Below are positions 3,416 through 21,449 of a DNA stretch of 23,175 nucleotides, one piece after another (positions within the stretch are counted from its first letter, which is position 1; every line of letters begins with the position of its first letter). The notes beneath the pieces are model-generated. The model was not told the origin of the DNA and ran no database searches. It saw only the letters and a list, made by a program, of their open reading frames with translations. The position numbers were made by a program, and so were the translations under genes. This DNA comes from a virus, in IMG/VR virus record IMGVR_UViG_3300038701_001019, positions 1 through 23,175 of that record; one strand, 5' to 3'.

Positions 3416-3965
3416 AGAAATCAGAATGTCGGCTGCGCCTGAAATCCGCGCGGAAGGCGATGCCGTCAAGGTCGCTGGATACGCCGCTGTGTTTGGCGAG
3501 GAAACCAACGTGGGCGGAATGTTCATAGAGGTGATCGAGCGAGGCGCATTTGAGGCGGCAATCGGGCGCGACGATGTGGTTTTTCTGATTAACCACGATG
3601 GGCTGCCTTTGGCGCGTTCGCGCTCTGGCACGTTGACATTGCGCGAAGATGATCGCGGGCTTTACATGGAAGCGGAATTGGACACTTCAGATCCTGACGT
3701 TTCCCGCATTGTGCCGAAAATGAAACGCGGCGATCTCGACAAAATGTCGTTTGCATTCTGGCCTGAGCGTCAAGAATGGGATGACAAAGGCGACATTCCA
3801 AAGCGGACTATCAAAGAGGCGTCTTTATATGATGTTTCAATCGTGACCACTCCGCAGTATAATGGCACAGAGATTGGATTGCGCGCGCTGCACGAGCACC
3901 GCAGCGAGGTCCAAGAAGATTTGCAGCTTTGGCGGCTTCGCATGAAGCGCAAGTTGCTACGGTAA
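3408..3965 (+). CDS. Prohead protease, HK97/U35 family
   Basis: This 185-aa serine protease is expected to cleave the delta domain of the capsid protein during head maturation. The family pattern is visible: VAGYAAVFG near residues 22-30, the catalytic His in FLINHD (H63) and the catalytic Ser in DKMSFAFW (S114), then the C-terminal EASLYDVSIVTTPQY segment (138-151). The ATG at 3408 lies inside the portal gene's last codons and begins MNKEIRMSA. The reading frame is open upstream to 3204, but that part is antisense-like Arg-rich translation of the portal gene and is rejected. The 92-nt gap that follows holds the capsid leader hairpin. Confidence 0.93.
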   Translation: MNKEIRMSAAPEIRAEGDAVKVAGYAAVFGEETNVGGMFIEVIERGAFEAAIGRDDVVFLINHDGLPLARSRSGTLTLREDDRGLYMEAELDTSDPDVSRIVPKMKRGDLDKMSFAFWPERQEWDDKGDIPKRTIKEASLYDVSIVTTPQYNGTEIGLRALHEHRSEVQEDLQLWRLRMKRKLLR

Positions 3966-4019
3966 CGGCGGCTCCCGCTGTTCGCCCTAATCACGCGCCT
4001 TGGGCAAGCGCTTGATTGA

Positions 4020-4057
4020 ACGCTGTGAAGCGTCCAGTCCCTTAGATGGAGGCCCTT
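4020..4057 (+). promoter_or_regulatory. Hairpin leader of the major capsid gene (GTGA tetraloop)
   Basis: A perfect 5-bp stem, ACGCT (4020-4024) with AGCGT (4029-4033), closes a GTGA loop, a GNRA-type tetraloop in RNA. Exactly 24 nt separate the stem from the capsid ATG, and these contain TTAGA followed by the GGAG ribosome-binding site. The same layout with a different stem sequence precedes the major tail gene at 7309-7346. A second 10-bp palindrome (CAAGCGCTTG, 4005-4014) lies just upstream. A role in mRNA stability or high translation is inference. Confidence 0.6.
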
Positions 4058-5329
4058 ATGGCTGATCTGAAAGAAATGCGGGAGAAGGCGGCGCGCACGC
4101 TGACCGAGGCCCGTTCGATGCTGGACAGCATCAAAGACAACGCAACCCCAGAAGAGCGCACCGAGGCGGAACAGTCCGTTGATCGCGCGCTGGCAGAGGC
4201 TGGCCGGATTGAGGCGGAAATCGACCGCCGCGAAAAGCTGGACGCCGCACAGCGTCGGATCGAAGAGCGCATGGATCAGGTGGACGAAACACGCCGCCCG
4301 ACGCTAGAAGGTGAGACACGCGGCAGTGACAGCGCCGACCAGATGGACTATCGCACTGCGTTCCACCAGTATCTGCGGTCGCAGGGCAATTTGGGCAACA
4401 TGGACGCGGAAGCTCGTGCAATCCTGCAAGCCGGGTATCAGCGCGTGGAAGCCCGCGCACAGACCACGACCGATGCGGCTGGCGGCTACACCGTTCCGAC
4501 CGAGCTGCTGAACATTCTGGTCAAATCGATGCTGGCATGGGGGCCGATGTATGATGAAAACATCGCCACCGTGATCACCACCAGCGGCGGCGGCACCCTG
4601 ACCATGCCGACCGTCAACGACACGGCGGTGACGCCGGTTGCGCACACCGAAGGCACCACCCTGACCGACGACGGCGGCAAGGATGTTACGTTCGGTCAAA
4701 AGCAACTGGACGCCTACGCGTGGAATACCGAATGGCTGCGGGTTTCCAAGGAGCTGGCCGACGACAGCATCTTCGCCATGGAGCAAATCCTTGGCGATCT
4801 GCTGGGTGAGCGTCTGGGCCGAATTGCCAACCTGCAATTGACCACCGGAACCGGGTCGAGCGCCCCCAACGGCATCGTCACGGCTTCCACGGAAGGCAAG
4901 GAGGCGGCATCGGCCACGGCCATTACCGCTGACGAAATCATTGACCTGCTACACTCGGTCGATCCTGCTTATCGCATGGGTCCGAAGGTGCGCTTCATGT
5001 TCAATGACGCCACGCTGGCGGTCATTCGCAAGCTGAAAGACGGTGACGGTAACTATCTCTGGCAGATGGGCAACTATCAGCAGGGCGTTCCCGGCAACAT
5101 CCTGGGCTATGCCTACAGCATCAATCAGGCGATGGCGTCGATTGCCACCACGACCAAGCCGATTGTGTTTGGCGATTTCGGCAAATACTACGTCCGCAAG
5201 GTTGGCGCGCCGCTGATCGGGGCAATCCAAGACAAGGATTTCTGGCCCGGTTTTGGTGTTGCAGGCTACATCCGTTTCGACGGTGAATTGGCCGATACCG
5301 CTGCGGTCAAGCATCTCGTGATGGGCTGA
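4058..5329 (+). CDS. Major capsid protein, HK97 fold
   Basis: This 423-aa protein would build the icosahedral shell. Residues 1-95 are a highly charged heptad-rich coiled coil typical of the scaffold-like delta domain. The HK97-fold body follows, with family segments AAGGYTVPTELLN near 140-152 and ILGYAYSINQAMASI in the second half, then GDFGKYYVRK. The upstream protease would remove the delta domain; the cleavage site is not obvious. The ATG at 4058 is chosen because GGAGG at 4048-4052 sits 5 nt upstream; the in-frame ATG at 4046 is part of that RBS region. It is flanked by a leader hairpin upstream and a large hairpin downstream (5331-5373), consistent with separate control of the most abundant structural mRNA. 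Confidence 0.95.
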   Translation: MADLKEMREKAARTLTEARSMLDSIKDNATPEERTEAEQSVDRALAEAGRIEAEIDRREKLDAAQRRIEERMDQVDETRRPTLEGETRGSDSADQMDYRTAFHQYLRSQGNLGNMDAEARAILQAGYQRVEARAQTTTDAAGGYTVPTELLNILVKSMLAWGPMYDENIATVITTSGGGTLTMPTVNDTAVTPVAHTEGTTLTDDGGKDVTFGQKQLDAYAWNTEWLRVSKELADDSIFAMEQILGDLLGERLGRIANLQLTTGTGSSAPNGIVTASTEGKEAASATAITADEIIDLLHSVDPAYRMGPKVRFMFNDATLAVIRKLKDGDGNYLWQMGNYQQGVPGNILGYAYSINQAMASIATTTKPIVFGDFGKYYVRKVGAPLIGAIQDKDFWPGFGVAGYIRFDGELADTAAVKHLVMG

Positions 5330-5330
5330 T

Positions 5331-5373
5331 CTGCTTTGCGAGGGGGCGGGCAACTGCCCCCTTTCCAAAGCAG
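5331..5373 (+). terminator. Two-tier hairpin after the major capsid gene
   Basis: Outer arms CTGCTTTG (5331-5338) and CAAAGCAG (5366-5373) are perfect complements. They enclose a second perfect 7-bp stem, AGGGGGC (5341-5347) with GCCCCCT (5356-5362), with an 8-nt loop. No T tract follows; instead the next gene's GTAGGAGG ribosome-binding site starts at 5374. It is therefore more likely a partial terminator, a 3'-end stabiliser or a translation-controlling structure than a full intrinsic terminator. Confidence 0.6.
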
Positions 5374-5386
5374 GTAGGAGGCCAGA

Positions 5387-5557
5387 ATGAAAATCAGGTT
5401 GCTAGTATCACGATCCGGCCCCGCTGGCGCACAAAATGCCGGTGATCAAATCGACGTGCCAGATGCGGAGGCAATGCGCATGATCGAGGCGGGGCAAGCG
5501 ACCCCTATTCGCACAGCAGCCAAAGGCAAGCCTGAGCGCGCCGTCAAGGATGCCTGA
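5387..5557 (+). CDS. Small conserved phage protein of unknown function (56 aa)
   Basis: A 56-aa basic protein beginning MKIRLLVSRSGP with a GDQIDVPDAEAMRMIEAGQA segment (20-39). A short beta-strand followed by a 'D..A.RMI.AGQA' helix is a pattern I associate with small proteins found between the capsid gene and the first connector gene in alphaproteobacterial phages, but I know no assigned function. A strong RBS (GTAGGAGG, 5374-5381) lies 5 nt before the ATG and directly abuts the hairpin 3' arm. The next gene starts 3 bases after its stop, so it belongs to the head-tail connector block. Confidence 0.75.
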   Translation: MKIRLLVSRSGPAGAQNAGDQIDVPDAEAMRMIEAGQATPIRTAAKGKPERAVKDA

Positions 5558-5559
5558 AA

Positions 5560-6162
5560 ATGGTTAAGCCGCTGCGTTGCCATGAAGCCTTAGAACGCAT
5601 AGAGGATGCCGCAGATTTGCCTGTGTCGGTCTGTGATGCGAAGATGCACTTGCGCATTACGTCCAGCGCAGAGGACGCTTATATCTCTGATCTGGTCTAT
5701 GCCGCCGTGGCGATGACTGACGGCCTTGGCACGCTTGGCAAGGCAATGATTACCCAGAAGTGGCGGCAATACTTTGGCGTCAATCCGGGCGTGGCGTATC
5801 TCAGCATTGGCCCGGTGCAGTCCGTTACCAAGATTGCGTATTACGATAAGGACGGCGTTGAGCAGGACGCGACGCTGACTGACTTTGACGTTTTTGGTAA
5901 TGGAAATGCAACGCGGGTAACGCCGAAGCCGGGGTTTTCTTGGCCTGATGCGCAGGATCGCCCGGACGCCATCTGGATTGAGTATGAGGCTGGATACGGC
6001 GACTTGCCTTCTGACGTTCCAGCCGCGTTGCGTCACGCAATCAAGATGCTCGTGGCGCACTGGTATGAGAACAGGGAAAACGCCACCGAGGCAGGGATGC
6101 GAAATATCCCATATGGATATGACGCCCTGATCAACACGGAAAGGGCGCGCTGGTATGGCTAA
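5560..6162 (+). CDS. Head-tail connector protein (gp6 / phiE125 gp8-like)
   Basis: A 200-aa protein of the family that forms the adaptor ring beneath the portal. Supporting features are the early helical segment with DAKMHLRI, the central LSIGPVQSVTKIAYYDKDG beta region near residues 81-99, the IWIEYEAGYG segment, and the C-terminal helix LRHAIKMLVAHWYENREN, which is the most recognisable part of these connectors. The AAGGA 9 nt upstream of the ATG is an adequate RBS. The 3' end overlaps the next gene by 8 bases. Position after the capsid and before the head-closure protein is canonical. Confidence 0.88.
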   Translation: MVKPLRCHEALERIEDAADLPVSVCDAKMHLRITSSAEDAYISDLVYAAVAMTDGLGTLGKAMITQKWRQYFGVNPGVAYLSIGPVQSVTKIAYYDKDGVEQDATLTDFDVFGNGNATRVTPKPGFSWPDAQDRPDAIWIEYEAGYGDLPSDVPAALRHAIKMLVAHWYENRENATEAGMRNIPYGYDALINTERARWYG

Positions 6163-6490
6163 GATCGGCCCCCTTGACCAGCTTGTGACGCTGCAATCCA
6201 GAACGCGCACAGCAGATGGTGGCGGTGGGTTTTCAGAAACGTGGGCAGACTTTGGAACTGACCCGCATGTGTGGGCCGATCCGCAGCCGCTGTATGGCAA
6301 GGAGGGCGTCGAAGATGGCGCTTTCAACGCAACTGGCGCGTGGCTGTTCAAGATCAGGAACAGAACTGACGTAAGCGAGCGTGACCGTCTTGTGTGGAAT
6401 GGCGAGCCTTACAACATCAGCCGGATCATGCGGCGCGGCGGGCGTGAGTTGTATCTAACCATTGAAGCGGTGCGCGGGGTGGCACAGTGA
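6155..6490 (+). CDS. Head closure / head-tail joining protein
   Basis: A 111-aa beta-rich protein resembling the SPP1 gp16-like stopper (phage head-tail joining) family. Typical elements are the start GPLDQLVTLQSRT, a gly-rich turn followed by FSETWADFG and VWADPQPL, and the C-terminal RLVWNGEPYNISRI segment. It would close the connector channel after packaging. It starts inside the last codons of the gp6-like gene and ends with a GTGA overlap with the next gene, so the connector genes are translationally coupled. Length is normal for the family. Confidence 0.88.
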   Translation: MAKIGPLDQLVTLQSRTRTADGGGGFSETWADFGTDPHVWADPQPLYGKEGVEDGAFNATGAWLFKIRNRTDVSERDRLVWNGEPYNISRIMRRGGRELYLTIEAVRGVAQ

Positions 6491-6900
6491 AGGTAGACAC
6501 AACGATCACCGGGGTTAATGATGTGGAGCTGTTGCTTAACAGCATTGCGCCAAATCAGGCAAAGAACATCATGCGCGCCACGGTTCACGACATGGCCAAA
6601 GAAGTGCGCGACGACGCGCGCGGCGACATGCCGGAAGATGAAGGCACCATGAAGGCAGTCACCGGCCACAAGCGCGAAAGGGCGTTGCCTTGGGGCGTGG
6701 CCAGCACGGTAAGGGTTGGCAAAGAAGCGTTCTACTGGCGGTTTCTGGAATACGGCGACGGACCTGATGGCGTGGCGTATGATTTCTTTCTGAAATCGGT
6801 TCACAAGATGCGTGGCAAGATGATGGGCACATTCCTGACGTCTTTTGGCAAAAAGTTTGAAGCGGCGGCGGCGCGCGCGGCAAAGCGAGCGGCGAAATGA
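6487..6900 (+). CDS. Tail completion protein, HK97 gp10 family
   Basis: A 137-aa basic protein of the HK97 gp10-like family, which sits at the head-tail interface. It shows the usual layout: a short N-terminal strand with GVNDVELLLNSI, a helix, then the VTGHKRERALPW and ASTVRVGKEAFYWRFLEYG segments (the 'YW.FLE.G' motif is characteristic, near residues 79-87), and an Ala/Lys-rich C-terminal helix. The start codon is GTG, overlapping the previous stop (GTGA); no better ATG lies close. The stop overlaps the next ATG. Confidence 0.88.
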   Translation: MKVDTTITGVNDVELLLNSIAPNQAKNIMRATVHDMAKEVRDDARGDMPEDEGTMKAVTGHKRERALPWGVASTVRVGKEAFYWRFLEYGDGPDGVAYDFFLKSVHKMRGKMMGTFLTSFGKKFEAAAARAAKRAAK

Positions 6901-7307
6901 GCGGATGGGATATTCAGCAGGCGATCTATATCAAGCTGACTGGCGCAACGTCCGTCACGTCACTTGTGCCTGCTGGTAGCATCGTTGACTTTGGGCCGCG
7001 CGAAAATGATGCGTCTGCAATTTACCCGTATGTGTCGTTTGGTGGGCTAATTTTGTCCGAGAATGATACGGACAGCACGACCGGCTTTGACATGGCCATT
7101 CGTATACACACTTACAGCGATCAAGGTGGGTCGCGGCAATGCAGGCAGATACAGGACGCGATCTATGGCGTTCTACACCTAGCAGAATTGACGGTTTCGG
7201 GGTATAACCCGATCATAACCTATCGCGAAGATACGCAGATCATGCAGACTTCGCGCGGGGCCTTCCATGGGGTTTGCGAATATCGCAGCCTTTTGGAGAA
7301 AACATAG
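6897..7307 (+). CDS. Tail terminator/completion protein, DUF3168 family
   Basis: A 136-aa protein matching the DUF3168 (gp17-like tail completion) pattern. It has the start WDIQQAIYIKLT, then VDFGPRENDASAIYPYVSFG near residues 29-48, an IHTYSDQGGSRQCRQIQDAIY segment in which a strand leads into a helix, and a C-terminal strand with YRSLLE. Proteins of this family cap the tail tube where it joins the head. It starts with an ATGA overlap. It is the last gene of the connector block; the 39-nt gap after it carries the tail leader hairpin. Confidence 0.88.
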   Translation: MSGWDIQQAIYIKLTGATSVTSLVPAGSIVDFGPRENDASAIYPYVSFGGLILSENDTDSTTGFDMAIRIHTYSDQGGSRQCRQIQDAIYGVLHLAELTVSGYNPIITYREDTQIMQTSRGAFHGVCEYRSLLEKT

Positions 7308-7308
7308 C

Positions 7309-7346
7309 GCGTCGTGAGACGCCCGAGCCTTTAGAAGGAGCCTGAT
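7309..7346 (+). promoter_or_regulatory. Hairpin leader of the major tail gene (GTGA tetraloop)
   Basis: A perfect 5-bp stem GCGTC (7309-7313) with GACGC (7318-7322) closes a GTGA tetraloop. Exactly 24 nt follow to the ATG, with TTAGA and AGGAG at the same offsets as in the capsid leader (15 of 24 positions identical without gaps). Three of the five stem pairs differ from the capsid leader but remain paired, the signature of a conserved RNA structure. Its function is inferred. Confidence 0.62.
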
Positions 7347-7748
7347 ATGGCACAAGCGGCGGGCCGCGATTTTGCGGTAAAAAAGAACAGCACGGTTATC
7401 GCGTCTGTTCGCAGCAAAAGCATCACATGGAACGGCACGTTGATCGATACGACCAACGATGACGACGAGGGCAAGACAACGTATCTGTCTGACAAGTTCG
7501 CGACCACGACGCTTGAAATCAGCGTTGAAGGTATGACCGACGACGACGTTCTGTCGGACTTGGCTTTCAGCGGCGACGACACTGATAAGTTTCTGTCTGA
7601 CCTGACGCTTGAGCGTCCGAATGGTGACGTGATTTCAGGCACGTTCATCCTGACGAACTACGTCGAGACCGGCCAGTATCAGGAGGCCGTAACCTTTACC
7701 GCGACCATCGTTCGTAGCGGCGCGCACACATGGACGCCTGCAACGTGA
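7347..7748 (+). CDS. Major tail (tube) protein
   Basis: A 133-aa acidic, beta-rich protein. The opening AAGRDFAVKKNSTVIASVRS, a Thr/Asp-rich middle with repeated 'D.FATTTLEISVEGM' type strands, and a closing VTFTATIVRSGAHTW are the pattern of TP901-1/GTA-type major tail proteins. These stack as hexamer rings to make the tube. It has the strong RBS expected of an abundant protein (AGAAGGAG, 7333-7340) and its own leader hairpin. The stop overlaps the ATG of the chaperone gene by one base. The small size is normal for short-chain tube proteins without an Ig domain. Confidence 0.87.
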   Translation: MAQAAGRDFAVKKNSTVIASVRSKSITWNGTLIDTTNDDDEGKTTYLSDKFATTTLEISVEGMTDDDVLSDLAFSGDDTDKFLSDLTLERPNGDVISGTFILTNYVETGQYQEAVTFTATIVRSGAHTWTPAT

Positions 7749-14367: not shown

Positions 14368-14730
14368 ATGTCTTGCTGCGTGGAAGAGATTTACGGGTGC
14401 ATCGCACAGGGCGCGGCGAAACGCTTTTCCTTCGAGGATGCGCAGGACGCGGACTTTTCCGGGGCGTCTGAAATCACGTTCGACGTGTGGCAAAAGAATT
14501 GGAAGGGCGAGCCAATTGGCGACCCTATCTTTTCGGCATCCCTGACAGGCGGCGGCGTTGACCCTGCTACACCTAGCCGCTTTATCGTGCGCGTGGGCAA
14601 CGTGGCCAGCGCGGCATTGCCTGCCGGGTCGCACTATTGCGAGGCGTGGGTTACGCTATCCAGCGGCAATCGGCGGTGCGTGGGCAAGGGCCGCTTTGAT
14701 GTAATCGACACAAGGAAATACGACACATGA
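14368..14730 (+). CDS. Small beta-sandwich protein next to the tailspike (120 aa)
   Basis: A 120-aa protein starting MSCCVEEIYGCIAQGAAKRF, followed by strands EITFDVWQKNWKGEPIGDP and FSASLTGGGVD and a closing HYCEAWVTLSSGNRRCVGKG. The pattern recalls the N-terminal domain of baseplate upper proteins (BppU-like Ig fold), but this is a weak resemblance. Start choice: AAGGA at 14355-14359 sits 8 nt before the ATG at 14368. The frame is open to an ATGA-coupled start at 14266, but the extra 34 residues look like translated spacer. Five cysteines in 120 residues are unusual for a phage structural protein. The stop overlaps the tailspike ATG, suggesting the two products act together. Confidence 0.6.
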   Translation: MSCCVEEIYGCIAQGAAKRFSFEDAQDADFSGASEITFDVWQKNWKGEPIGDPIFSASLTGGGVDPATPSRFIVRVGNVASAALPAGSHYCEAWVTLSSGNRRCVGKGRFDVIDTRKYDT

Positions 14731-16526
14731 CCGCGCGCGGGACTGAAAAAAACGTAGCAGTGAACGACGCGGGCGATGTGGTTCCGGGCGCTCAGATTGA
14801 GGTTCGGCTGGCATCTGACAATTCGCTGGCCACGCTCTACGCGGCCTCCACGGGTAGCACGACGCTGACCAATCCTTTTGACGCTGAGACGGACCCGGCG
14901 GGGGAGTATCAGTTCTGGGTCAATCCGGGCGAATATGTCGTTTCCGTGGGCGTGTCGCCTGCGCTCTACACCTATCCCCTGACCATTCTGGGCAACACCA
15001 ACTTTGCCACGCGGGCGCTGCTAAAGGCGGCTGTGGACGATGGCGGGGCATGGCCGGATGGCACTGTGATTACGGCTGGCAATCGCCAACTCATTGCAGA
15101 GACGGGATACGACAGCATCGGCGGCGATCTGGACGGGCTGCGGCCATTGCGCCCACGCATCGCGGTTATCGGTGACAGCTTGTCGCTTGTCGCGCCGGGG
15201 CGGTCCTATCCGTGGCCCAAGGCGCTGCAAGACCAGATTTCGCAAGTCGGTGTGGACTGCGAGTTTCAGATTTTCGCGGTCGGCGGTGCATCGTTCACTA
15301 CGGCGCTCAACAACTTCTGGAAGGATGCGGCAGGAAACAACATCGACCAGGTGGATAAGGCCGCGCTTTCCGAGTGTGACGCGGTTATCGTGGCGCTTGG
15401 CTATAACAATGCTTTCACCACGTCAGACACGATTGCTGAGGCCAAGGCGTCCATTGATGCTTTCGTGACCGCCATCAAGGCCGCGACAAGCGCGCCTGTG
15501 TTTTTCATCCGCCAGTATGTCTGGGACCGCCGGGTTATCACGCCAGACGGCACCGAAACGGCAATCCCGAACCGCCTTGTCATTCCCCAGCTTCACGCGA
15601 ATATCGGGCCTGGTGTTCCGTCTGGGACTGGTGGGTCTGATCGGTGTTCCAATCATCCGCTGTATTTCGACAACGATATCGGCGCGACGGCGCGCGGCAA
15701 AATGTATGTTTTGCAGCAGATGAACGATTACCTTGTGACGTTGGCGTCGGGCGATGCGCAGCTAAAGACGCTTGGCGAGTTGGACTTTTTCACGGTCGCG
15801 CGCATGGGGTGCCACACGGACGGTTTGCACGTCGATGAAATCGGCCATCGCCTCTTGGGTGCGAACCTGCTGGTCCCCGTGATCGACGCCATGCCGGAGT
15901 TGTTTCAGGCTGCGTTCATGGCCAAATATGAGGACAGCGAAATCTACAGCATGGATGACGTGTTCAACGCGACATTCATCGGTATTGATTACGGCAACGA
16001 CGAGGGCAGTTTCTATGACCCTGACCGCGTGATCGGCGGGTTTGGCCGGGATTACATCGTGTCTGGCAACACCGCGCAAACCTTGCTGGGCTATCACAAC
16101 TACCCGTTCCGCCAGCGGCAGGATACTTGGTATATCCAGTATTTCCGCGATATCGTCGTGACCATGCCGACAAGCGTGTATGACGCCAATACGCCTTTCA
16201 CCATTACGCTGCAAAACATGCCTGCCACTGACACGGTGACGGTGTGGAACCCCAACGCGGGGACGTGGCAAACGACGCGCACGGGTAGCTACAACGGCAA
16301 GGGGGCGGGGTTCAACACGTTCGGCAATCTCAGCTTCACCACGACGCTTGCGCAGCTTTACGGCGTGTCCACACCGCCGGGGGCAACTGACCCGCTGAAT
16401 GATCCGAGCGACCCAGCCGTGCCACCGTTGGATATTGGTATTCGCATCCAGTCAAGCACATGGCCGGAAGGCTATGCGTTCCTAGAGTTTTGGGGCAAGC
16501 TGCAAGTGTTGAATGATTTGCCATGA
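14727..16526 (+). CDS. Tailspike with SGNH/GDSL hydrolase (esterase) domain
   Basis: A 599-aa receptor-binding protein with a built-in esterase. Residues ~10-80 form a carboxypeptidase-regulatory-like beta domain (GAQIEVRLASDNSLATLYAA, then EYQFWVNPGEYVVSVG). The SGNH core follows: block I IAVIGDSLSL with nucleophile S151, a block II glycine in AVGGASF (186-187), block III GYNN with oxyanion N227, and block V DGLH with D365 and H368 as the Asp/His of the triad. All catalytic positions are present. Residues ~400-599 are beta-rich and probably bind the target glycan or form the trimer tip. The likely role is deacetylation or de-esterification of the host capsule or O-antigen during adsorption. 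It is ATGA-coupled on both sides. Confidence 0.85.
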   Translation: MTARGTEKNVAVNDAGDVVPGAQIEVRLASDNSLATLYAASTGSTTLTNPFDAETDPAGEYQFWVNPGEYVVSVGVSPALYTYPLTILGNTNFATRALLKAAVDDGGAWPDGTVITAGNRQLIAETGYDSIGGDLDGLRPLRPRIAVIGDSLSLVAPGRSYPWPKALQDQISQVGVDCEFQIFAVGGASFTTALNNFWKDAAGNNIDQVDKAALSECDAVIVALGYNNAFTTSDTIAEAKASIDAFVTAIKAATSAPVFFIRQYVWDRRVITPDGTETAIPNRLVIPQLHANIGPGVPSGTGGSDRCSNHPLYFDNDIGATARGKMYVLQQMNDYLVTLASGDAQLKTLGELDFFTVARMGCHTDGLHVDEIGHRLLGANLLVPVIDAMPELFQAAFMAKYEDSEIYSMDDVFNATFIGIDYGNDEGSFYDPDRVIGGFGRDYIVSGNTAQTLLGYHNYPFRQRQDTWYIQYFRDIVVTMPTSVYDANTPFTITLQNMPATDTVTVWNPNAGTWQTTRTGSYNGKGAGFNTFGNLSFTTTLAQLYGVSTPPGATDPLNDPSDPAVPPLDIGIRIQSSTWPEGYAFLEFWGKLQVLNDLP

Positions 16527-16927: not shown

Positions 16928-17219
16928 GGCTATGTATGATGGTGACGGCGGCTTTGGGGCGTTTGTTCGGGACTGGTGGACGATTGGTGTGTTTATGGCT
17001 GGTCTGGTCGTGTCATACATCGCGGGGCGTGAGCGGCAGCGGTATCGCATAGATGACCTATACGGCAAGGTGAAGGCCCAAGACGCGCGGCTGAAGGTGC
17101 TGGAGGATCAAGGGCAGGCCGAGGCGATCACGCTGGCGGAAATCCGGGTGCAGCAAGTCAACATCTTGGCCGCGCTATCCGAGATCAAGGACGCATTGGC
17201 GCGGAAGGCGGACAAATGA
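16917..17219 (+). CDS. Single-pass membrane protein with coiled-coil tail (100 aa)
   Basis: A 100-aa protein with one membrane helix near residues 20-38 (WWTIGVFMAGLVVSYIAG), followed by a basic stretch RERQRYR and then a long amphipathic coiled coil (VKAQDARLKVLEDQGQAEAI and LAALSEIKDALARKADK). This topology resembles small phage holin/haemolysin-XhlA-like or DUF2730-type proteins found next to endolysins. It lies directly before the endolysin with an ATGA overlap, supporting a lysis role. It could be a holin accessory, or an inner-membrane spanin-like protein separate from the Rz/Rz1 pair further on. Confidence 0.65.
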   Translation: MTDKAMYDGDGGFGAFVRDWWTIGVFMAGLVVSYIAGRERQRYRIDDLYGKVKAQDARLKVLEDQGQAEAITLAEIRVQQVNILAALSEIKDALARKADK

Positions 17220-17818
17220 ACCTTGACCTTGGCGACACTCGGCTGATTATCGACACGGCGCGCAAAGCGGGGCTGTATCGCAATCAACTGGCCTATGTGC
17301 TGGCAACGGCATATTGGGAAACCGCGAACACGATGGAGCCGGTTGAGGAGGCGTTCTGGATGTCGGACGCATGGCGGGCCAAGAACCTGCGCTACTATCC
17401 GTGGCATGGTCGCGGGTATGTGCAACTGACGTGGGAGCGCAATTATCTGCGGGCTGGCAAGGCGCTGGACGTTGACCTTATCAGCGATCCAGACTTGGCG
17501 CGCGACCCGCAGATTGCCGCGCCTATCCTTGTCACCGGAATGGTTGAAGGATGGTTTACAGGAAAGCGGCTTGATCAATACATCACGCTGCAAAAGTCGG
17601 ACTATGTGGGCGCGCGCCGGATCGTCAACGGCACGGATCGGGCGGCGCAGATCGCTGACATTGCGCGGCGGTATGAGGCGGCGCTGCTGGACGCTGGGTA
17701 TGGCGTTGATGTCAGGCCGCCAGCCCCGAAGTCTACTATTATCACCAGCACGGGCGGGCGCGACTGGCTGGCGGCGCTTCTGGCCGCACTCAAAAGCATC
17801 TTTGGAGGCAAGGCATGA
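17216..17818 (+). CDS. Endolysin, GH19 chitinase/lysozyme-like
   Basis: A 200-aa muralytic enzyme of the glycoside hydrolase 19 (chitinase class I-like) group used by many phages as endolysin; it would cleave the glycan backbone of peptidoglycan. Visible hallmarks are QLAYVLATAYWETA with the catalytic acid E35, acidic residues E41, E44 and E45 shortly after, YYPWHGRGYVQLTWERNY near 61-78 (the substrate-binding GRGYVQLTW motif is diagnostic), and GMVEGWFTGKRL. No signal or SAR helix is present, so release needs a holin. The C-terminal 18 residues (DWLAALLAALKSIFGGKA) form a separate amphipathic helix after a Pro/Thr-rich linker. The gene ends in an 18-bp sequence repeated at the end of the next gene. 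Confidence 0.9.
   Translation: MNLDLGDTRLIIDTARKAGLYRNQLAYVLATAYWETANTMEPVEEAFWMSDAWRAKNLRYYPWHGRGYVQLTWERNYLRAGKALDVDLISDPDLARDPQIAAPILVTGMVEGWFTGKRLDQYITLQKSDYVGARRIVNGTDRAAQIADIARRYEAALLDAGYGVDVRPPAPKSTIITSTGGRDWLAALLAALKSIFGGKA
17801..17818 (+). repeat. 18-bp direct repeat, copy 1 (gene junction)
   Basis: TTTGGAGGCAAGGCATGA is identical to 18034-18051. It encodes the C-terminal FGGKA of the endolysin, provides the GGAGG ribosome-binding site, and contains the ATGA junction with the next gene. Confidence 0.9.
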
Positions 17819-21355: not shown

Positions 21356-21449
21356 GCCCCCGCGCTTTACGGTCCGTTGCGTTTCGGGCGCGGGGGCTGA
21401 CACCGCCGTTGCGACTGGTGACAGTCCAAAATTGACGCGCGGGCGGTGT
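21356..21449. other. Highly structured intergenic element (two hairpins, one nested)
   Basis: Hairpin 1 is a perfect 10-bp stem, GCCCCCGCGC (21356-21365) with GCGCGGGGGC (21388-21397), and a 22-nt loop. Two bases later, hairpin 2 has arms ACACCGCC (21400-21407) and GGCGGTGT (21442-21449). These enclose a perfect inner stem GACTG (21413-21417) with CAGTC (21422-21426) on a GTGA loop in plus-strand sense. It lies between two minus-strand genes and holds no credible ORF. It could be a terminator/leader of the minus operon or a small RNA on either strand. Confidence 0.5.

Follow-up and report, generated by a model that had tools for sequence, protein, structure and literature searches.

A structured mRNA leader conserved before capsid, tail and other virion genes in phages of Alphaproteobacteria

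Late operons of tailed phages encode proteins that are needed in very different amounts. Here we describe a repeated RNA element located upstream of the major capsid and the major tail (tube) protein genes of a 23,175-base virus record from IMG/VR, which was analysed whole and is called the window below. We class the element as a cis-acting structured mRNA leader, and it is unusual in serving high-copy virion genes that are not homologous to one another. In its complete form it consists, from 5' to 3', of a predicted H-type pseudoknot (GCCY/RGGC with a 4-bp helix) and a hairpin, termed hairpin C (2 bp, a conserved A.C or C.C mismatch, 5 bp and a GNRA loop). RNA structure, fixed spacing, sense-strand bias and association with high-copy genes are found across unrelated protein families. 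The leader may act in cis on translation initiation at these genes, a reading to which we give a probability of about one half.

Conserved structure and the genes that carry it

A preliminary description of this DNA had pointed to two 5-bp stems closed by a GTGA loop, ACGCT-GTGA-AGCGT at 4020-4033 and GCGTC-GTGA-GACGC at 7309-7322, and both are present on the + strand. Each stops 24 nt 5' of an ATG (4058 for the capsid gene, 7347 for the tail gene), and the 24-nt spacers agree at 15 positions, gap-free, as had been reported. The arrangement of a GTGA-capped 5-bp stem with an ATG exactly 24 nt further on, seen twice in the window, was absent from all 200 dinucleotide-shuffled versions. GTGA hairpins with 5-bp stems, counted at any position, number four in the window, compared with an average of 0.08 after shuffling, and a pattern of loop plus spacer matches twice against 0.02 expected. 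The two remaining GTGA hairpins (at 4623, inside the capsid gene, and at 21413) lack a suitably placed ribosome-binding site. The latter, at 21413-21426, is a perfect 5-bp GACTG-GTGA-CAGTC hairpin lacking a Shine-Dalgarno sequence or start at the usual distance.

Relatives were obtained by a capsid-protein search, which gave 80 loci selected by capsid homology alone; a search of viral sequences with the tail protein only returned no relatives. Many of these loci have the same hairpin before the capsid gene, with stems that differ yet pair, and repeat it before a gene about 3.3 kb downstream. Two pattern scans, in which only the loop and the Shine-Dalgarno neighbourhood were fixed and the stem was left free, added many further sites, and the counts from all scans are lower bounds. 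Among the exact matches listed, at least four of the five pairs form in 135 of 139 leaders of virion genes vs 1 of 18 others; real partners make 4.6 of 5 pairs per stem, and reshuffled partners 3.6, again among the matches listed. The preliminary description had proposed a covariance model as a further check, and this proved positive, with covarying sites at a fixed place before start codons in many phages, both related and unrelated. Model R1, run on both strands of the 80 loci (665 kb), gave 46 matches. All lie in the sense direction, 30 of them at the start codon of the capsid gene and the other 16 at that of the tail tube, with none before other genes. Some of the 80 loci fed the model, and the absence of matches elsewhere is independent of that.

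The anatomy of the element is clearest in an alignment of 66 non-redundant composite leaders. The order is GCCY, 3-8 nt, the 4-bp helix with its 9-nt loop CUU-RGGC-AA, 2-12 nt and hairpin C; 3' of the hairpin lies a block near UCCC-NNAGAWGGAG-(G)CC, followed by the start codon. Across the 4-bp helix and the inner helix of hairpin C, 7 of 9 pairs covary and 98.5% of the cells are paired. Double-change cells number 133 vs 38 in shuffles, and the covariation score of 0.618 exceeds both that of shuffles (0.170) and that of slid controls (0.093 at most). GCCY and RGGC covary as well: leaders with AGGC have GCCU in 7 of 7 cases, and pairing is possible there in 64 of 66. It is from these two covarying strands, arranged in pseudoknot order, that the pseudoknot (pseudoknot B) is predicted.

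The lower part of hairpin C was assessed in 44 diverse hairpins, all picked because their inner helix is complete. The first position beneath that helix is a mismatch, A.C in 28 of the 44 and C.C or C.U in 12, and is paired in only 5%. The two pairs below the mismatch covary (93% and 82% paired vs 49% and 39% in shuffles). Two C-G pairs of the hairpin are invariant. The loop is mostly GUGA or GUGAY (that is, a tetra- or pentaloop), to which a scan that left the loop open adds GCGA, GAGA, GUAA, GGAA and GGGA, plus the deviating GGAY. The early claim that structure rather than sequence is kept is thus borne out by strong covariation of the stems in related phages. The hairpin described as a leader is real but accounts for the 3' half only of a composite leader, in which the predicted pseudoknot lies upstream, and its loop, GTGA at both window sites, is GNRA rather than strictly GTGA across relatives.

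Departures from the full arrangement also occur. A pseudoknot without the GNRA hairpin, with the Shine-Dalgarno sequence directly after it, is found in the capsid leaders of loci L024, L030, L031, L039 and L067 and in two tail leaders (L005 5435-5490 and L076 9564-9623). Two tandem GTGA hairpins precede a single start codon in L441 (1501-1604) and L591 (155-229).

With all scans pooled, the proteins encoded downstream of the element form at least 22 clusters unrelated by BLAST. They include at least six major head families (phrog_10, 1005, 29, 212, 1357 and 371), tail families (phrog_1407/13196, 158/584, 290, named minor tail there, and 807), scaffolds (phrog_3927 and 673), a further head protein (phrog_240) and a few proteins with no assigned function. 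The suggestion that only the capsid and tail tube use the element was therefore wrong: scaffolds, other head proteins and one head protease carry it elsewhere. For example, prophage G557 has it before a ClpP-like head protease, the capsid, a 178-aa protein and a tail-tube-like protein.

A sceptical reader could point out that the 23-kb window holds only two sites and that these have spacer sequence in common, as expected of coincidence or of DNA shared through gene duplication with no function as RNA. This explanation is refuted by covariation: compensatory changes occur in dozens of leaders, the matches are sense-only and the downstream genes are non-homologous.

The capsid and tail leaders of the window

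The capsid leader of the window has all parts of the element, and the tail leader has hairpin C alone, with no pseudoknot B. Their parts and the genes that follow are:

3964-3982, + strand: hairpin A, AACGGCGG-CTC-CCGCTGTT, an optional part assigned from sequence and fold; overlaps the stop TAA (3963-3965) of the protease gene
3984-4011, + strand: strands of predicted pseudoknot B, GCCC 3984-3987 with GGGC 4002-4005 and GCGC 3995-3998 with GCGC 4008-4011
within 3984-4011, + strand: loops of predicted pseudoknot B, TAATCAC, CTT and AA
4014-4039, + strand: hairpin C of the capsid leader, outer helix 4014-4018/4035-4039, mismatch A4019.C4034
inner part of the same hairpin, + strand: inner helix 4020-4024/4029-4033, GTGA loop 4025-4028
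4048-4051, + strand: Shine-Dalgarno GGAG of the capsid gene, in the conserved block TCCCTTAGATGGAGGCC, from alignment and spacing statistics
4058-5329, + strand: major capsid protein gene, HK97 fold, phrog_10 (Pfam Phage_capsid 9e-51, PHROG major head)
7307-7324, + strand: hairpin C of the tail leader, G7307-C7324, mismatch C7308.C7323, helix 7309-7313/7318-7322, GTGA loop 7314-7317
7337-7340, + strand: Shine-Dalgarno GGAG of the tail tube gene, in CCTTTAGAAGGAGCC, from sequence and alignment
7347-7748, + strand: major tail (tube) protein gene (Pfam Phage_tail_2; phrog_1407, PHROG major tail)

The 5-bp capsid stem first described is present, but the hairpin is longer, continuing into the outer helix (4014-4018/4035-4039) beyond the A.C mismatch. 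Its predicted fold has -11.3 kcal/mol (z = -4.7). The tail hairpin lies directly behind the stop of the upstream gene (TAG 7305-7307) and is less convincing when folded alone (z = -1.6). Model R1 scores the capsid leader at 83.7 bits, a value given by construction since this site is among the training sequences, and the tail leader, which lies outside that alignment, at 35.7 bits (7274-7349); the next match in the window has 9.2. Hairpins like hairpin A precede many related capsid genes and not tail genes.

In the minimum free energy fold of the window, GGGC of the pseudoknot loop pairs with a GCC(C) 3' of the Shine-Dalgarno sequence. This GCC is nearly invariant, and for that reason covariation cannot test the pairing. 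The capsid Shine-Dalgarno stretch AGATGGAGG (4046-4060) itself holds an ATG in the capsid frame (open reading frame 4046-5329), so gene callers may set the capsid start 12 nt too early.

The surrounding genes form an HK97-type morphogenesis module, with terminase, portal, S78 protease, capsid, connectors, tail terminator and tail tube (Pfam, PHROGs). Further downstream, 14727-16526 encodes a structural-region protein with a GDSL lipase-like domain (below cutoff), and 17216-17818 encodes a protein with a GH19 (chitinase class I) domain, which may be the endolysin.

Possible function and competing explanations

A role in translation initiation is favoured by geometry. The hairpin ends 14.8 +/- 1.0 nt before GGAG, a spacing as tight as that from GGAG to the start codon (7.1 +/- 0.9 nt), and the element fills the intergenic gap, the median distance from the end of the upstream open reading frame to the loop being 57 nt. 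In the mechanism that we propose, the leader, placed in the gap between two genes of the late operon, would mark the starts of the virion proteins made in the highest copy number (capsid and tail tube, and elsewhere also scaffold and other head proteins). Pseudoknot B and hairpin C would be held 15 nt 5' of the Shine-Dalgarno sequence, where the mRNA exits the 30S subunit. Most probably they would provide a docking or standby site, which would raise initiation at these genes and insulate it within one polycistronic mRNA. Both the step affected (translation) and the sign of the effect (positive) are inferred.

The known mechanism that we judge closest to this proposal is the standby pseudoknot of tisB in E. 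coli, a leader pseudoknot that admits ribosomes; it is close to the 5' end of its mRNA, and some 100 nt separate it from a ribosome-binding site that is sequestered (PMC7708055). That pseudoknot serves one host gene, whereas the present element is a phage-wide module located 15 nt from a ribosome-binding site that is not specially sequestered.

A rival reading is that the element acts in mRNA stability or processing. After cleavage of the late transcript, the pseudoknot and hairpin would form a stable 5' end that blocks 5' to 3' decay, and the capsid and tail messages would outlast the rest of the transcript. Alphaproteobacteria possess RNase J, a compact pseudoknot followed by a GNRA hairpin is what lies in the intergenic gap near the upstream stop (median 57 nt to the loop), and the carriers could be taken as only those genes needed in many copies. 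On the other hand, decay protection needs neither a Shine-Dalgarno spacing fixed to about 1 nt nor conserved bases around the Shine-Dalgarno sequence, and hairpin-only leaders, such as the tail leader of the window, begin right behind the upstream stop codon. We regard this explanation as rather unlikely.

Who would read the element is a separate question. One consensus precedes unrelated products in unrelated phages, which makes a reader common to the hosts likelier; we infer a factor shared by alphaproteobacterial hosts, either the ribosome itself (most likely its 30S subunit) or a host RNA-binding protein. More tentatively, the element may be a virion-gene start module, shared by unrelated alphaproteobacterial phages, selected independently of the encoded protein and read by the host (through the 30S subunit or another factor), which boosts the highest-copy genes and which the host itself does not use. 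Mimicry of 16S helix 36, to which GTC-GTGA-GAT bears a weak likeness, was also considered and dropped, since the stems vary freely beside the loop.

Alternatively, the leader could be an operator at which an RNA-binding protein of the host or the phage, acting in trans, restrains or times translation of virion genes, in the manner of MS2 coat protein or T4 gp32 at their own targets. Hairpin C does resemble a protein site, with its GNRA loop, two invariant C-G pairs and fixed A.C/C.C mismatch. A phage precedent, and for repression the closest analogue, is the T4 gene 32 leader, an H-type pseudoknot bound by its own product gp32 (PMC3014915, PMC535899). The present element would likewise place an H-type pseudoknot, here predicted and missing from the tail leader of the window, in the leader of an abundant phage protein; it differs in that one consensus precedes many unrelated products and a GNRA hairpin follows the pseudoknot. 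Control by the gene product is improbable when one consensus stands before non-homologous capsids, tails and scaffolds, and the occurrence of one element in non-homologous phages speaks against the phage-encoded regulator suggested in the preliminary description. We find an operator unlikely overall.

A transcription signal, whether a boxB-like antitermination site, a terminator or a promoter, is very improbable. The 5-bp stem with a GNRA-type tetra- or pentaloop resembles boxB of lambda and P22, which acts in transcription together with boxA and has no link to a start codon. In the aligned leaders, however, inspection revealed no boxA (about CGCTCTTTA) 5' of the hairpin, as a lambda-type nut site would have, and no conserved promoter upstream. 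A + strand terminator search at 4020 and 7309 found no GC stem with a U-run at either hairpin. Moreover, the sites are tightly coupled to start codons and recur within the operon just before two genes.

Several observations weigh against an initiation module that enhances high-copy genes. The tight hairpin-to-GGAG spacing comes from a set partly drawn with patterns that restrict this very distance. Predicted accessibility of the Shine-Dalgarno sequence is 0.38 vs 0.42 in other genes of the same loci (p = 0.25), so folding by itself hints at neither enhancement nor repression; the same values give no support to a switch that works by Shine-Dalgarno sequestration. In L448 (2333-2417) the element precedes a ClpP-like head maturation protease, which is not obviously high-copy. 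Finally, no host gene with the element was found among the genome matches described below, which is odd for a signal that the host would read.

Distribution, relation to known elements and significance

Matches in the whole genomes sampled are rare: 5 of 395 (about 1%) in the order of Primorskyibacter (Rhodobacterales), 12 of 398 (about 3%) in the order of Hansschlegelia (Rhizobiales/Hyphomicrobiales) and 3 of 385 in a class-wide sample of Alphaproteobacteria. A phylum-wide sample gave 0 of 399, with none from outside the class, and a rare prophage element could escape such sampling. Most of the inspected genome matches precede prophage capsid or tail genes, and the weak L435 and L445 look like chance. 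A pattern scan of genome contigs gave mostly stemless chance matches, and among those listed L315 was the sole real site.

Some named phages with related capsids are without the element, namely Rhizobium 16-3, RHph_Y3_1, RHph_TM3_3_14B and Labrenzia vB_LagS-V1. In two of them, RHph_TM3_3_14B and RHph_Y3_1 (L451/L452), a different, stemless, start-associated stretch, CACCAC...GGAGACTTGC-ATG, is common to the capsid (5995) and the major tail gene (9884 / 9934), so the coupling of capsid and tail starts may have arisen more than once. Relatives without the element often have a terminator-like GC stem with a UUCG loop and a U-run 20-30 nt before the capsid start; examples just before the capsid ATG are L057, L063, L068, L016, L023, L028 and L073.

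The doubt expressed earlier as to whether the element belongs to a described RNA family is upheld. Rfam 15 gave no family match in the window (E up to 5) and none at the element in seven related loci (E up to 1), where int-alpA appeared elsewhere only. The int-alpA match, in L252 (9723-9787, - strand), is near threshold at 34.4 bits vs a cutoff of 35.8. No earlier description of the element was found among the open-access papers searched.

Among start-associated elements of phages, the closest are the Start-Associated Sequences and their extended form (SAS/ESAS) of Cluster K mycobacteriophages. These comprise a 13-bp GGGATAGGAGCCC at the ribosome-binding site before non-structural right-arm genes, in phages of actinobacterial hosts; their function is unknown, and RNA hairpins in ESAS have little support according to the authors (PMC3203893). 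Both are repeated phage elements at start codons that include the Shine-Dalgarno sequence, keep one orientation and precede varied gene families. The element described here differs in its sequence (TCCC-NNAGAWGGAGNCC), its position before structural genes and its strongly supported RNA pairing. In motif and gene class, the aligned leaders fall outside SAS/ESAS.

Tailed phages need hundreds of capsid and tail-tube copies and few portals from one late operon, and this relative dosage is usually ascribed to promoters and the strength of ribosome-binding sites. A shared leader offers a directly testable RNA answer. The element represents a new RNA family and a marker for high-copy virion genes in uncultured phages, and may provide a strong translation part for alphaproteobacteria. 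Altogether, the pattern points to an undescribed control of the amount of virion proteins in phages of Alphaproteobacteria.

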